Shown here piece after piece: positions 3,153 to 50,844 of a DNA stretch of 64,000 bases. This stretch comes from Marivibrio halodurans (GTDB taxonomy: Bacteria; Pseudomonadota; Alphaproteobacteria; UBA8366; Aestuariispiraceae): positions 62,001 through 126,000 of the forward strand of contig NZ_JAGMWN010000003.1 in assembly GCF_017963645.1 (NCBI RefSeq), written 5' to 3'. The notes under the pieces were generated by a model that worked only from the letters and a program-made list of their open reading frames with translations, was not told where the DNA came from and made no database searches. Made by a program: the position numbers and the translations under genes. Within the stretch, counting starts at the first letter, position 1; each line of letters opens with the position of its first letter.

Positions 3153-3211
3153 TCAATGTAGGGTGATCGAAGGGGCGGGATCCGACGGGATATCCCGCCC
3201 CTTTTCCCCTT

Positions 3212-3350
3212 ATACCAAATCTTGCTGATCACGCCCCATGCGGATCGCGTTCGGCTTTGGTCGGGTGGGAAGGGTGGCGCGGGCGATGCGCTCCTGGCCG
3301 AGAACCCGGGAGGGACGTCCCCATGGGTCGTGATCAACAAGATTCGGTAT
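3212..3350. repeat. Palindromic repeat element, family A copy 1
   Basis: A 139-base element between two convergent genes. Left arm 3212-3240 and right arm 3322-3350 are inverted repeats of 29 bases with three mismatches; the outer tip reads ATACCAAATCTTG. The inner right part carries GCGCTCCTGGCC, the reverse complement of GGCCAGGAGCGC. The same body and arms recur at 49548-49720. The right tip is the first base of the TTA (TAA) stop codon of the GNAT gene. It could be a small non-autonomous mobile repeat that also works as a bidirectional terminator. Confidence 0.85.
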
Positions 3351-3853
3351 TACCCGTCCAAGTCGATGACCATGCGGAAATTGGTCAGCGCTATTCCATG
3401 GCGCACCGGCCGTTGCTCACGCAGCACATGCCAGCCCCGCTTCTCGAAGAAACGCCGTGCCAAATGACTGGCATCCGTCGTCAGGCGGCGGAGCCCCGAC
3501 GTTCGCGCAACGCTCAAAACCGCATTATAGAGTGCATCCGACACGCCGGTCCCGAACCGATCCGGCCGGACATAAGCAAGGTCGATATGCCCCGCGTCGG
3601 TCAGGCTCATGAAACCGAGCGGATCGCCCTCCCCATCCTCTTCATCGTCCGAGGCCGCCAACTCGACCGCGATCAGCGTGGTCATGCTGCCCAGGCGCGC
3701 CGCCCATTCCGCCGTCTCCGGCGGAGCCGGCGCCCAGGCGGCGAGCTGTTCCTCGGAATAGGCCCCGACGGCGCCCTCGCGGATGCTGGCATGGAAGAGA
3801 CGCGCGGTCGCCGCCGCGTCGTCGTCCGGACGGAAACGGCGGATATGCAGCAT
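3350..3853 (-). CDS. GNAT family N-acetyltransferase
   Basis: A 167-residue GNAT protein starting MLHIRRFRPDDD, which matches the usual first beta strand of this fold. The acetyl-CoA loop is VRPDRFGTGVSDALY, a degenerate form of the Q/RxxGxG/A signature, and the C-terminal FFEKRGW segment is typical. An acidic insert (ASDDEEDGEGD) interrupts beta strands 3-4. The longer open frame would add 39 Arg/Gly-rich residues unlikely to be translated. It acetylates an unknown amine substrate. Its TAA stop codon abuts the palindromic element at 3212-3350. Confidence 0.85.
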   Translation of the reverse strand: MLHIRRFRPDDDAAATARLFHASIREGAVGAYSEEQLAAWAPAPPETAEWAARLGSMTTLIAVELAASDDEEDGEGDPLGFMSLTDAGHIDLAYVRPDRFGTGVSDALYNAVLSVARTSGLRRLTTDASHLARRFFEKRGWHVLREQRPVRHGIALTNFRMVIDLDG

Positions 3854-34606: not shown

Positions 34607-34870
34607 CTAGATCAGGCACAGAATGCCGTAGCAGCGGGCGAACCCGAAATGGAACACGGCCCACAGCAGGATATCCAACAACAGACACCCGCCCAGGAAC
34701 CAGGCGATCGTGCGCTTGGTCAGGCGCGGGGCGCGGCGTTTTGCGCGCGCCCGTCCGCCGTCCTGCCGGTTGCCGTCCTGCCGGTTGCCTTCTTGCCGGT
34801 CGCCCCCTTGCCGGTCGCCCCCTTGCCGGTCGCTCGGATCGGCCGCGGCTCGGCGCTTGCTCTCTCCCAT
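34607..34870 (-). CDS. Small membrane protein with DRQGG-type pentapeptide repeats
   Basis: An 87-residue predicted protein. After a basic N-terminus come five copies of a (D/N)RQ(G/E/D)G pentapeptide, a basic patch (RARAKRRAPRLTKR) and one membrane span WFLGGCLLLDILLWAVFHFG, ending in CYGILCLI with two cysteines. The repeats arise from a 15-base DNA tandem repeat. The topology (basic cytoplasmic part, C-terminal anchor) suggests translation, but the family is unknown to me. ATG at 34870 preferred over GTG at 34882. Confidence 0.6.
   Translation of the reverse strand: MGESKRRAAADPSDRQGGDRQGGDRQEGNRQDGNRQDGGRARAKRRAPRLTKRTIAWFLGGCLLLDILLWAVFHFGFARCYGILCLI
34757..34831. repeat. 15-base tandem repeat, five units
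   Basis: Five 15-base units of the type GCCNNCYTGCCGGTY run from 34757 to 34831; units 1 and 2 are identical, as are units 4 and 5. They encode the pentapeptide repeats of the minus-strand small membrane protein and keep its frame. Confidence 0.9.
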
Positions 34871-38185: not shown

Positions 38186-38199
38186 CCCAAAGGCGCGTT

Positions 38200-38342
38200 A
38201 GAGCCTGATGATATGATATGGCCCCATCCGAGACGCCGCTTTCGGTTTTCCGGCTAGGAGCGCCGCGCGCGCCCTCTCCCCATGGGGCCGTGGGCCGGAA
38301 ACCCGGAAAACGATCTCGGACGGGTCCATATCATCATGCTCT
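38200..38342. repeat. Palindromic repeat element, family B
   Basis: A 143-base imperfect palindrome between convergent genes. Left arm begins AGAGCCTGATGATATG at 38200; the right arm, read backwards from 38342, begins AGAGCATGATGATATG. The left arm has an extra ATATG. The arms continue with GCCCCATCCGAGA versus ACCCGTCCGAGA and further CGGTTTTCCGG-like pairing. The inner box GGCTAGGAGCGC at 38252-38263 matches the box in the elements at 3212 and 49548. Its right tip overlaps the TAG stop codon of the LysE gene. Confidence 0.85.
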
Positions 38343-38967
38343 AGTGCAGCCGCGTCGTCAGGATCTTGAGGCCGGCCGCGGCGAAGGCGAGCGCGAATAC
38401 CGCCTCGAACCACCGGCGCAGGCGCAGATAAAGCCCCGCGACGCGGGCGCTGGAGAACAGCAGCGCGTAGCCGTGGAAGATCACGCAACTCTGCAACCCC
38501 ACCGCCAGGATGACGGTCACGAGGGTCGCGGGTGACGCCCCGGCGGGCACACCGACGGCGTAGAGCGCCCCGAAGAAAAGGATCGCCTTCGGGTTGGTGA
38601 GGTGCAGCAACACCCCCCGGCCATAGAGCGCGGGACGCGACGGCGCCCGGATCGCGCGGGTGGCGAGCGCGCCGTCCCCCAGCGCCGCGCGCGCCGACTT
38701 CACCGCCAGGAACAACAGATAGAGCGCCCCGGCATAGCGCAGGATCTCCAACATCCAGGCATTGGCGAGCATGACCGCCCCGAAGCCGAGCGCCGCGACG
38801 CAGGACCAGATCAGCGATCCCGTCATGATCCCGGCCGCGAGGGCCAATCCGGCGGCCCGTCCAGCGGCCATCGACGTCCCCGCGAGGGCGAGGGTCGCGG
38901 GGCCCGGGCTCGCCGACGCGATAAGAGCCGCCCCCAGGATCAACGAAAGATCGACGCCCTCCACCAT
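38341..38967 (-). CDS. LysE-family amino-acid exporter
   Basis: A 208-residue membrane protein with about six hydrophobic segments. The N-terminal ASASPGPATLALAGTSMAAGRAAG is the LysE/RhtB signature and NPKAILFFGALYAV the second conserved motif. It should export amino acids or related small molecules; substrate unknown. Its stop codon lies inside the tip of the palindromic element. Confidence 0.9.
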   Translation of the reverse strand: MVEGVDLSLILGAALIASASPGPATLALAGTSMAAGRAAGLALAAGIMTGSLIWSCVAALGFGAVMLANAWMLEILRYAGALYLLFLAVKSARAALGDGALATRAIRAPSRPALYGRGVLLHLTNPKAILFFGALYAVGVPAGASPATLVTVILAVGLQSCVIFHGYALLFSSARVAGLYLRLRRWFEAVFALAFAAAGLKILTTRLH

Positions 38968-44975: not shown

Positions 44976-46016
44976 ATGTCGGACGCTTTCGGACAGGAAG
45001 AACAGGCGCCGCTGATCCTGGTCAAGAAGATCAAGATCGAGGGCGGCGGCCATGGCGGCGCCTGGAAGGTCGCCTATGCCGACTTCGTCACCGCGATGAT
45101 GGCCTTCTTCCTGCTGCTCTGGTTGCTCAACGCGACGACCGAGGAGCAGATGAACGGTATTTCCCAATATTTCGCGCCGAGTAGCGTGGCGCAGAGCGAC
45201 CAGGGTCTGGGACAGGCGATGGCCGGCCTTCAGGTGGCGGCCGAGGGCGCGATGCGTTCCGATTCCGCGCGCCCCTCGATCTCCGTCGCGATTCCATCCT
45301 TCGGCGAGGAGGAGGCGGGCGAGAACGACGGCGAGACCCGCGACAGCATCGACGAGGAGAACGTCAACAGCGGCCAGGCGAGCGCCGACTTCGAGGAACA
45401 GCAGATGCTCGACGAGGCGATGGCGCGCATCAAGCAATCGGTGCTGGACTCGCCGGAAATGGCGGATCTTCAACAGAATCTGATGCTGGAGAATACGGCC
45501 GAGGGGCTGCGTATCCAGATCCTCGATCAACAGGACAAGCCGATGTTCGAGGAGGGGACCGACCAATTGACCCGCCGGGCTGTTCGGTTGCTGGCGCTGA
45601 TCGGCAGTATCGTGGCGACGCTGCCCAACGACATCACCATCACCGGGCACACGGATGCAACCCCACCACCCGGCGGCGACCCGAACTATACGAACTGGGA
45701 GCTTTCCGCCGACCGCGCCGCCTCCTCGCGGCAGTGGCTGGTGGATGCGGGGTTGGCGGACCGGCAGGTGGCCATCGTCGCCGGCAAGGGGGACAGCGAA
45801 CCGATCCTGCGCGAGGACCCGAACGATCCCACCAATCGACGCATAAGCATCCTGATCGTACGCGAGAGCCAACCCGTCTCCACCGCCATCGGTCCCGCCC
45901 CGGACGCCGAGCCCGGCGGGCCACGGTCCACCCGGCCCGACGGAACCGGCGGCGCCCAGGAATCGGCGCCCGCGCGCGCGCCGGACGGGGCGGCTCCGCC
46001 GCCGCTGCCCGAATAA
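44976..46016 (+). CDS. motB: Flagellar motor protein MotB, copy 1 (OmpA-like domain)
   Basis: A 346-residue stator subunit. The single N-terminal span KVAYADFVTAMMAFFLLLW contains the proton-carrying Asp36. An acidic, Gln/Glu-rich region of about 150 residues follows, then a peptidoglycan-binding OmpA-like domain with ITGHTDATPPPGG, WELSADRAASSRQWL and NRRISILIV. A Pro/Gly/Ala-rich tail of about 45 residues ends the protein. AAGGGACAAGG lies directly before the ATG. Confidence 0.93.
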   Translation: MSDAFGQEEQAPLILVKKIKIEGGGHGGAWKVAYADFVTAMMAFFLLLWLLNATTEEQMNGISQYFAPSSVAQSDQGLGQAMAGLQVAAEGAMRSDSARPSISVAIPSFGEEEAGENDGETRDSIDEENVNSGQASADFEEQQMLDEAMARIKQSVLDSPEMADLQQNLMLENTAEGLRIQILDQQDKPMFEEGTDQLTRRAVRLLALIGSIVATLPNDITITGHTDATPPPGGDPNYTNWELSADRAASSRQWLVDAGLADRQVAIVAGKGDSEPILREDPNDPTNRRISILIVRESQPVSTAIGPAPDAEPGGPRSTRPDGTGGAQESAPARAPDGAAPPPLPE

Positions 46017-46040: not shown

Positions 46041-46967
46041 ATGGCGGCCAAGCAGGAAGTCATCGTCAAGAAGAAGAAGGTGGTGATCGAGGGACACCAT
46101 GGCGGTGCCTGGAAAGTCGCCTACGCCGACTTCGTCACCGCGATGATGGCTTTCTTCCTGCTGCTCTGGCTGCTCAACGCGACCGAGCAGGAAGTACTCG
46201 ACGGCATATCCAATTACTTCACCCCGACCGTCCTGACGCAATCCGGCAGTTCGGGCGCGGGTGGGTTGTTCGGGGGCGCATCGGCCACCAATCCGGGGCC
46301 GGTGGAGCAGGACCAGGAAACGTCGATCCTGACCGAGGATTCAACCGCCACCGGACAGTTGAACGCTAACGATCCCGGCGAGGGCGCCAATGACGAGACC
46401 AGTACCGGCAGCGAGGGCGAGGTCGATTTCGAGGCGGAGGAGAAGACCTTCAACACGACCAAGAATCTGATCGAGAAGTCGCTCGACGAGATGCCGCCCG
46501 AGCTTCAGGACCTGAAGGAAAGCATCAAGGTCGATATCACCGAGGACGGCCTGCGCATTCAGGTCCTGGACAACCGGCGCCGGTCCGGTTTCGTGCGCGG
46601 TACATCGGAATTGACGGAGAATGCGCGCCAAGCCCTGCGTTTCGTCTCGCAATATATCGAGCGTCTGCCGAATCGCATCTCCATCACCGGCTATACCGAT
46701 GCGGAGGAGGCCCCGCGCGAGGCTTGGCAGCTTTCCGCCGCGCGGGCGAACAGCGCGCGCCGCATCCTGCGGGAAACCGGCCTGCCGCCCCAGAAGTTCG
46801 AGACCGTGCAGGGCAAGGCGGCCACCGAATTACTGGTTCCCGAGGAGCCGACATCCGCCCTCAACCGCCGAATCTCGATCGTGATGCTGCGCCGCGCGGA
46901 ATATCCGGACGGCGTGGCCCGCCCGCCCTCCATCCTCGATACCGGCGACGGCCAAACGGCGGAATAG
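46041..46967 (+). CDS. Flagellar motor protein MotB, copy 2
   Basis: A 308-residue MotB paralogue 24 bases after copy 1. The membrane segment and its flanks (GGAWKVAYADFVTAMMAFF, Asp30) are identical to copy 1 for about 28 residues, while the rest is diverged. The OmpA-like domain reads ITGYTDAEEAP, QLSAARANSARRIL and NRRISIVMLR, with GYTD in place of GHTD. It may form a mixed MotB1-MotB2 dimer with MotA or a stator for a different condition. Confidence 0.9.
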   Translation: MAAKQEVIVKKKKVVIEGHHGGAWKVAYADFVTAMMAFFLLLWLLNATEQEVLDGISNYFTPTVLTQSGSSGAGGLFGGASATNPGPVEQDQETSILTEDSTATGQLNANDPGEGANDETSTGSEGEVDFEAEEKTFNTTKNLIEKSLDEMPPELQDLKESIKVDITEDGLRIQVLDNRRRSGFVRGTSELTENARQALRFVSQYIERLPNRISITGYTDAEEAPREAWQLSAARANSARRILRETGLPPQKFETVQGKAATELLVPEEPTSALNRRISIVMLRRAEYPDGVARPPSILDTGDGQTAE

Positions 46968-49498: not shown

Positions 49499-49547
49499 GG
49501 GCGGGTCACGTATCCCCTCCCCGTCTCACGGAGGGGAACGTGCCCTT

Positions 49548-49720
49548 ATACCAAATCTTGTTGATCACGCCCCATGAGGATCGCGTTCGGCTTTCCCCTG
49601 AACGGACGGAGGCGGGCAGGAAGAGACGCGCGGGCGATGCGGGGCATCGTCCAAGCCGCGCTCCTAGCCGAGAACCCGGAAGGGACGTCCCCATGGGGCA
49701 TGATCAACAAGATTTGGTAT
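49548..49720. repeat. Palindromic repeat element, family A copy 2
   Basis: A 173-base element between convergent genes. Left arm 49548-49576 and right arm 49692-49720 are 29-base inverted repeats with a single mismatch. It shares arms and body segments (GGATCGCGTTCGGCTT; GCGCTCCTAGCCGAGAACCC; AGGGACGTCCCCATG) with 3212-3350 but has about 34 more bases in the centre. The right tip is the first base of the TAA stop codon of the AI-2E-type permease gene, as in copy 1. Confidence 0.88.
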
Positions 49721-50844
49721 TACCGTCCGGATGGAGTGATCTTGCCTTCCGCGGATAACAGGATCGCGACCGCGCGGGTCGGCCGGAACTGGGCGCAGAT
49801 CAGCATGGCGATCACGACGAAGGGGATGGAGAGCACCATGCCGACGATCCCCCAAATCGAGCCGAAGACCGCGAGCGCCAGCAGAATGACCAGCGGGCTC
49901 AGATTGAGCGAACGCCCCATCAACTTCGGCTCCACCACATTGCCGACGGTAACCTGAACCGTCGCCAGAACGCCGAGCGTCACCACGAAATAGATCGGGT
50001 TCGAGAACTGGATCAACGCCAGCACCGAGGGGAAGGCGACCCCCACCAGCGAGCCGATATAGGGGATGTAGTTGAGCACGAAGATCAACACCGCCCAAAA
50101 CCCGGCGAAATCAACCCCGACGGCCGCCATCACGGCATAGCTGACCAGACCGGTGATCGCGCTGACCAGCGTCTTGAGGCCGATATAGCGTTGGATGTCG
50201 CTGGCGATGCGGCGAACCGTATCATGTACCGTGTCGGCATGATGGCCATCGCGAAACAGAGCGTTGATCTTGGACCGGAAGGTCGCCTGTTCCAACAGGA
50301 TGAAAACGACATAGAACAGAATCGTGAAGATGTTGCCGGCCACCGCCGTGATCTGGGACGCGGCCGTGCGCAGAACGCTCGCGACATCCACCTCCTGCGC
50401 CAGCGACCGGACACTCGGCAACGCGTCGATGCCGAGCCGGACGGTCGCCTTTTGCAGCAATGCCTGAACGTTCTCCTGATATTTCGGGGCACGCTCGGTC
50501 ACATCGGCGATATTGCTCGCCACGATATCGCCAAGCAGCACCACGCCGCCGACCACGATCAGGATGGCGAGCCCCATGCCCGCCCAGAAGGGCATGCGCG
50601 GGGCACCCGGCCAGGGCTGGCAGAAGCGTGCCGCCATGCTGTCCAAAAGGATGACGATGAAGACGGCGATCACGAAGGGCAACAGGATCGACTGGCCGAC
50701 CACCATGCCCACGATGGCGAGCGCCGCCAGCCCGCAAGAGGCGAAAACCGCCAGCACCCCGGAATGGCGCCGGGCGCGCTTCGCTTCGTCATCCTCGCCG
50801 GGGACCAGCGGCGGGGAAGCCGGAAACTGGCCATCATCGCTCAT
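49720..50844 (-). CDS. AI-2E family transporter (PerM type)
   Basis: A 374-residue membrane protein with seven or eight predicted spans. LPFVIAVFIVILLDSMA near the N-terminus and the C-terminal FVLNYIPYIGSLVGVAFP plus VEPKLMGRSLNLSPLVILLAL are the family signatures. Members include AI-2 exporters and Na+/H+ antiporters; function here is open. ATG at 50844 follows AAGGGGGCAGGG. The C-terminal stop codon abuts the palindromic element. Confidence 0.9.
   Translation of the reverse strand: MSDDGQFPASPPLVPGEDDEAKRARRHSGVLAVFASCGLAALAIVGMVVGQSILLPFVIAVFIVILLDSMAARFCQPWPGAPRMPFWAGMGLAILIVVGGVVLLGDIVASNIADVTERAPKYQENVQALLQKATVRLGIDALPSVRSLAQEVDVASVLRTAASQITAVAGNIFTILFYVVFILLEQATFRSKINALFRDGHHADTVHDTVRRIASDIQRYIGLKTLVSAITGLVSYAVMAAVGVDFAGFWAVLIFVLNYIPYIGSLVGVAFPSVLALIQFSNPIYFVVTLGVLATVQVTVGNVVEPKLMGRSLNLSPLVILLALAVFGSIWGIVGMVLSIPFVVIAMLICAQFRPTRAVAILLSAEGKITPSGR

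Follow-up and report, generated by a model that had tools for sequence, protein, structure and literature searches.

The 143 bp palindromic element at positions 38200-38342 of the window, that is, the whole stretch of 64,000 nucleotides from Marivibrio halodurans that was analysed (C16:62001-126000), is probably a shortened member of a family of non-autonomous, MITE-like mobile elements of the Alphaproteobacteria, about 263 bp long. The family is MITE-like in its main defining features, a known parent excepted. It is short, non-coding and dispersed (about 23 and 18 loci of two types in the 4.18 Mb genome searched), and its terminal inverted repeats are matching ends of about 33 bp. Target duplication and empty sites are also seen, exactly for the AGTG-ended relatives and by flank statistics for the ATACC-ended ones; for the AGAGC ends, to which the element at 38200-38342 belongs, the flanks display a TA framing that may be a duplication or an extended palindrome.

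The element lies on the plus strand and was delimited by its sequence, a genome search and alignment. It is an imperfect palindrome, starting with AGAGCCTGATGATATG and ending with CATATCATCATGCTCT, and its fold stands at z = -6.4 against shuffles; the coordinates at which an earlier note had placed a palindrome are correct. Aligned to a full-length copy of the AGAGC-ended type (type B), it covers positions 1-73 and 221-275, the middle being deleted. The outer arms, which form the type B terminal inverted repeat, occupy 38200..38234 (plus strand) and 38309..38342 (minus strand), and the core box GGCTAGGAGCGC, which contains CTAG, is found at 38252..38263 (plus strand). A TA is present at either border (38199..38200 and 38342..38343), a putative 2-bp duplication of the target according to the TA rule derived from the relatives. 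The left TA reads TAG with the next base, and on the right, a LysE-family gene of the minus strand ends with its TAG stop at CTA (38341-38343).

Two relatives are present in the window, both of them internally deleted copies of the ATACC-ended type (type A): one of 139 bp at 3212..3350 and another of 173 bp at 49548..49720. The former is flanked by TTA at 3210-3212 and 3350-3352, and the latter at 49546-49548 and 49720-49722. The right TTA provides the TAA stop of a minus-strand gene, for a GNAT protein in the first case and for an AI-2E-type transporter in the second. All three window copies (139, 143 and 173 bp) have lost internal parts of the elements of about 263 bp that are found at other loci of the genome. 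Convergent genes surround each of the three, and the right end gives the minus-strand gene its stop codon. The window also holds other repeats. The stretches 45050-45136 and 46097-46183, 1047 bp apart, are 94% identical, and their translation is presumably akin to the N-terminus of MotB; at 34757-34831, there are four to five tandem copies of a GCCGTCCTGCCGGTT-like unit of 15 bases.

As judged from the alignments, the core shared by the type A and type B repeats is a case of real homology. It had been claimed that the element at 38200-38342 has its inner part, and not its outer 20 or so bases, in common with the reverse complement of 49548-49720. Indeed, GCCCCAT (38221-38227) is followed by GGCTAGGAGCGC in both, after 24 bases in the former and 23 in the latter, while the outer bases are unlike each other. 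The local alignment of the two scores 25, whereas 1000 shuffled sequences scored 9.7 on average and 17 at most; a chance match of the box is ruled out, as none of the shuffles reaches this score. Full-length type A and type B copies align with 71% identity across 181 nt (E 2.7e-15). With a type B query, copies with ATACC ends were retrieved from a different family of the order (E 6e-18), and all the end types align nearly without gaps. The outer ends themselves are hardly alignable, since 3 to 98 of 500 shuffles score as well when the ATACC ends are compared with other end types. This would suit the proposal that palindromes of separate origin, the ATACC and the AGAGC repeats, share the box by chance or convergence. 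However, the homology of the bodies, the reach of the type B query and the near-ungapped alignment across types speak against it, and it is regarded as extremely improbable; the outcome that the earlier note had itself envisaged, a box matched by chance or elements of unrelated families, is contradicted by the shuffles and the body homology.

When the genome was searched, as had been suggested, about 18 AGAGC loci and, with the 49548-49720 element as the type A query, about 23 ATACC loci were obtained, these counts being search matches from which diverged copies may be missing. Full-length copies of both types measure about 263 bp, and their bodies are homologous. The counts are probably too low because draft assemblies break inside these repeats. 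Contigs often end within them, as at C16:1-77 and C11:1-77 of the same genome and at the loci L151, L161, L165 and others. The loci L109 and L111 have one flank in common and differ in the other.

Beyond this genome, 13 of 39 genomes of the order match. The exact core pattern of arm 1 was found in 73 stretches, nearly all of them titled Kiloniellaceae, Rhodospirillaceae, Rhodospirillales, Alphaproteobacteria or Proteobacteria; the two odd labels, Mesoflavibacter and Bacteroidetes, look like those of misnamed MAGs. The repeat is carried (L157, L203, L214, L219) by CP051228, a complete chromosome named ‘Mesoflavibacter sp.’, hence Bacteroidota by name. It is apparently identical with G011, a genome in the family of the window organism, so that the label looks wrong. 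A covariance model of arm 1 matched 30 of 385 sampled Alphaproteobacteria genomes at E <= 1e-5, many of them in several copies, and the second arm often appeared as the adjacent match on the other strand. Across the class, the related elements are usually 258-268 bp long. The outer ends read from the covariance-model loci and the loci of the order are of at least ten kinds, among them ATACC, AGAGC, AGTGTGG, CTAGGAGCCTGTC, CTAGTGTGGTGGAAC, TAGCACCCAC, TAGTGCCC, AGTACTC, AGCCCGC and GGTGCCAAGG. The family with a conserved body and differing ends, which the earlier note had thought unusual, is therefore borne out and spans many families of the Alphaproteobacteria. No exact match to the core pattern was found in IMG/VR, and no plasmid relative in PLSDB by blastn. 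A viral origin was considered and rejected, the sole IMG/VR match to the ATACC end being a chance match of a 20-mer.

The relation between bodies and ends was followed on a tree of 80 copies built from the bodies only, with the outer ends excluded. It shows about 5 changes of end type, where the least possible number is 2 and the shuffled mean is 32. Because the changes are so few, the end types are mainly old, inherited traits of subfamilies. Several of them can coexist in one genome. Arm swapping, which had been offered as a cause of the differing ends, is not borne out as the main one, given this clustering; it holds for two composites, and one outlier on the tree combines ATACC ends with a type B-like body. 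In the composites (C11:731202-731537 and C16:341148-341465), sequence comparison places an AGAGC end joined to an ATACC copy at the CTAG within its core box GGCTAGGAGCGC. They would have arisen by insertion of a type B element into a type A element at the TA of this CTAG and subsequent recombination between the homologous bodies.

That these elements move is seen in the AGTG-ended relatives, which have a TA at both borders. Five of their insertions (six comparisons) could be set against an uninterrupted orthologous site with a single TA in related genomes. Of 53 ATACC copies, 36 have the same TNA left and right, against 31% between different copies. At the 47 ATACC sites framed by T and A, the two sides agree in the middle base in 36 cases and have complementary bases in 7; because agreement prevails, the TNA is a target duplication and not an extension of the palindrome. 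For one ATACC copy, the corresponding sites in two relatives are empty and nearly clean, 1-2 bases off. Insertion thus duplicates TA in the case of the AGTG ends, as the empty sites show, and TNA in the case of the ATACC ends, as the flank statistics show. The AGAGC ends are framed by TA, often within CTAG, and by the flanks alone, duplication and palindrome extension look alike here. This type gave a single empty-site comparison, diverged at the junction, and a clean empty site was not obtained; in a genome of the same genus, the gene order around the 38200-38342 site differs. Since the AGAGC subtype is related to the AGTG-ended clade in the tree of bodies, we infer that it, the copy at 38200-38342 included, is likewise mobile.

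The ATACC-ended copies are preferentially sited in stop codons, which are rebuilt by the duplicated TNA. Of the 35 copies with long flanks, 21 have a junction codon that terminates an open frame of 100 codons or more; for the copies of M. halodurans itself, the figure is 11 of 13. The baseline is 11% of the TNA sites, both in the window and outside genes, and is approximate for other genomes. All the TNA triplets are stops (TAA, TGA) or reverse complements of stops (TTA, TCA), and so the insertion leaves the gene complete. Such siting is compatible both with a preference of the transposase and with the loss of harmful insertions. For the TA-type ends, this test is uninformative because the element always makes TAG, with a baseline of 56%.

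The elements are multi-copy and encode no transposase themselves. Duplications of TA and TNA are characteristic of DDE transposases, and it is these duplication lengths that suggest the action of such enzymes on the elements in trans. Among the matches to PF01609 (DDE_Tnp_1), PF13358 (DDE_3) and PF13340 (DUF4096), there was no transposase with matching ends. In one relative, all 36 matches to the end pattern were short elements or unpaired ends, with no long element bearing the same ends. IS5-type (DUF4096) and IS630-type (DDE_3) transposase genes do occur in some of these genomes, but their recognisable ends differ. DUF4096-type (IS5-like) transposases are present in M. halodurans, at least one of them at a CTAG. 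An IS5-type insertion sequence with the ends CTAGGCGGCGTCTGCATTTAG lies in a CTAG site on contig C22 (L081, 1146-1994), and the contig breaks at its right end. A fragment of a DDE_3 (IS630-type) transposase (C11:276607-276741) was seen some 100 bp away from an ATACC element of full length (C11:276846-277107). A possible mover is the IS427 group of the IS5 family, for most of whose members in Paracoccus 2-bp duplications are listed (PMC3281130). It resembles the present case in this duplication and in the DUF4096-type transposases of M. halodurans, but its terminal repeats match none of the end types examined.

The body of the full-length copies can fold, by prediction, into a three-way junction, modelled on an alignment of 42 copies and 281 columns. 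It comprises an outer stem of about 33 bp and two arms of about 95 nt, with 100 pairs in all. This junction is a conserved alternative only, as a single long hairpin is the predicted fold of at least one ATACC copy. In the model, 92.5% of the cells pair, compared with 70% after shuffling and 35-42% with the partner slid. Two-sided changes occur in 76 of the 100 pairs and total 878, against 276 when shuffled; thus the covariation that the earlier note had proposed to look for is present. Constancy is greatest at the arm tips, in sequences such as CGATGCGGGGCATCG, and in the box that surrounds TAGGAGCG. The stems are therefore maintained by compensating changes, and the arm tips are constant in sequence, a pattern that fits the suggested selection on the inner box. 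In a palindrome, compensating changes can also stem from one arm templating the repair of the other.

Such structure raises the question of whether the repeats are primarily structured RNAs, for example 3' UTR stabilisers or terminators, which were spread by chance duplication and whose mobility is incidental. The strong covariation, the very stable folds (z -11 to -16 in full-length copies) and the location at gene ends, between convergent genes for each of the three window copies, would all agree with this. In arm 1, moreover, G-T pairs exceed A-C pairs by 156 to 23, and with this leaning an RNA role is conceivable. However, counted by distinct columns, the arm 1 stem is even (17 to 15), and the outer stem favours neither strand (G-T 27, A-C 25), as would suit a feature at the DNA level. 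The strand bias was dropped as a proof of RNA function, the signal being mixed. No curated Rfam family matches the elements, and the empty sites and target duplications show transposition. The RNA reading is considered unlikely.

It has also to be asked whether the folded single strand is itself the substrate of transposition, the recombinase reading the three-way junction, as in REP or attC-type systems, and not the double-stranded terminal repeats. The junction, loops and stem pairing are indeed conserved more widely than the terminal sequences. Furthermore, the left and right outer arms of the same copy match better than those of different copies in four groups (the AGAGC copies of M. halodurans, the ATACC copies of G022, other ATACC copies and the AGAGC copies of G011). 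This likeness could come from subfamily ancestry as well as from arm-to-arm repair, and it was absent in the remaining groups tested. The TA and TNA duplications point to DDE enzymes instead, and deleted copies devoid of the junction occur as dispersed insertions, though deletion after insertion is possible. A single-stranded substrate is, on this evidence, quite improbable, and the MITE-like reading is preferred.

The comparison with known systems supports a MITE-like nature with peculiarities. MITEs such as RUP, Correia/NEMIS, ERIC and QMITE are also short, non-coding and dispersed, and have terminal inverted repeats, a short target duplication and a stable fold (PMC2229807, PMC10969869). 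Unlike them, the present family keeps one body across a bacterial class while its terminal repeats and duplication length vary by subfamily; it has a three-way junction in place of the single long hairpin, and no parental insertion sequence was recognised. The CIR repeats of Caulobacter and Brucella are likewise alphaproteobacterial and intergenic, with two long hairpin arms, a linker and TA termini, but they are described as about 110 bp long, without terminal inverted repeats and with a conserved GANTC site (PMC2229807). Here, GANTC is not conserved, being absent from 53 of 83 copies (mean 0.43 per copy against 0.86 in shuffles); with these counts, the length of about 263 bp and the outer stem of about 33 bp, membership in CIR is ruled out. 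The RIME intergenic mosaic elements of rhizobia, as far as they are described where cited in PMC2245857, are also alphaproteobacterial intergenic palindromes of mosaic build. RIME1 and RIME2 were compared through this description, and the covariance model had no match in 50 kb of S. meliloti pSymB. REP/BIME palindromes, which go with a REP-associated tyrosine transposase, measure 20-40 bp, a size that the full-length copies, at mostly 258-268 bp, do not fit. Word and sequence-string searches of the literature, in which subscription papers are incompletely covered, found no published description of the family. As far as this literature goes, the combination of a conserved folded body, several types of terminal repeat and two duplication lengths is undescribed.

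In the proposed mechanism, different DDE-type transposases of resident insertion sequences would act in trans on the different end types. The folded body would be retained for a function of its own, perhaps in aiding transposition or in rendering an insertion downstream of a gene harmless. The ends would shift slowly through divergence and would change occasionally when one element enters the core-box CTAG of another and the homologous bodies recombine. A wider proposal, which is possible but tentative, sees here a class-wide ‘chassis’ element. One folded body would persist because its terminal repeats change, in part by self-nesting at its own core-box CTAG, and with them the transposase and the duplication (TA or TNA). 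The ATACC versions would land in stop codons, to be repaired by the duplication.

Bacterial MITEs are usually viewed as remnants of insertion sequences, with their identity residing in the ends. In the present family, unlike this usual view, it is the interior that is old and conserved, and the ends vary. This suggests that the body does something that is selected. The family would also offer a natural test of the switching of ends between transposases and of the targeting of stop codons.
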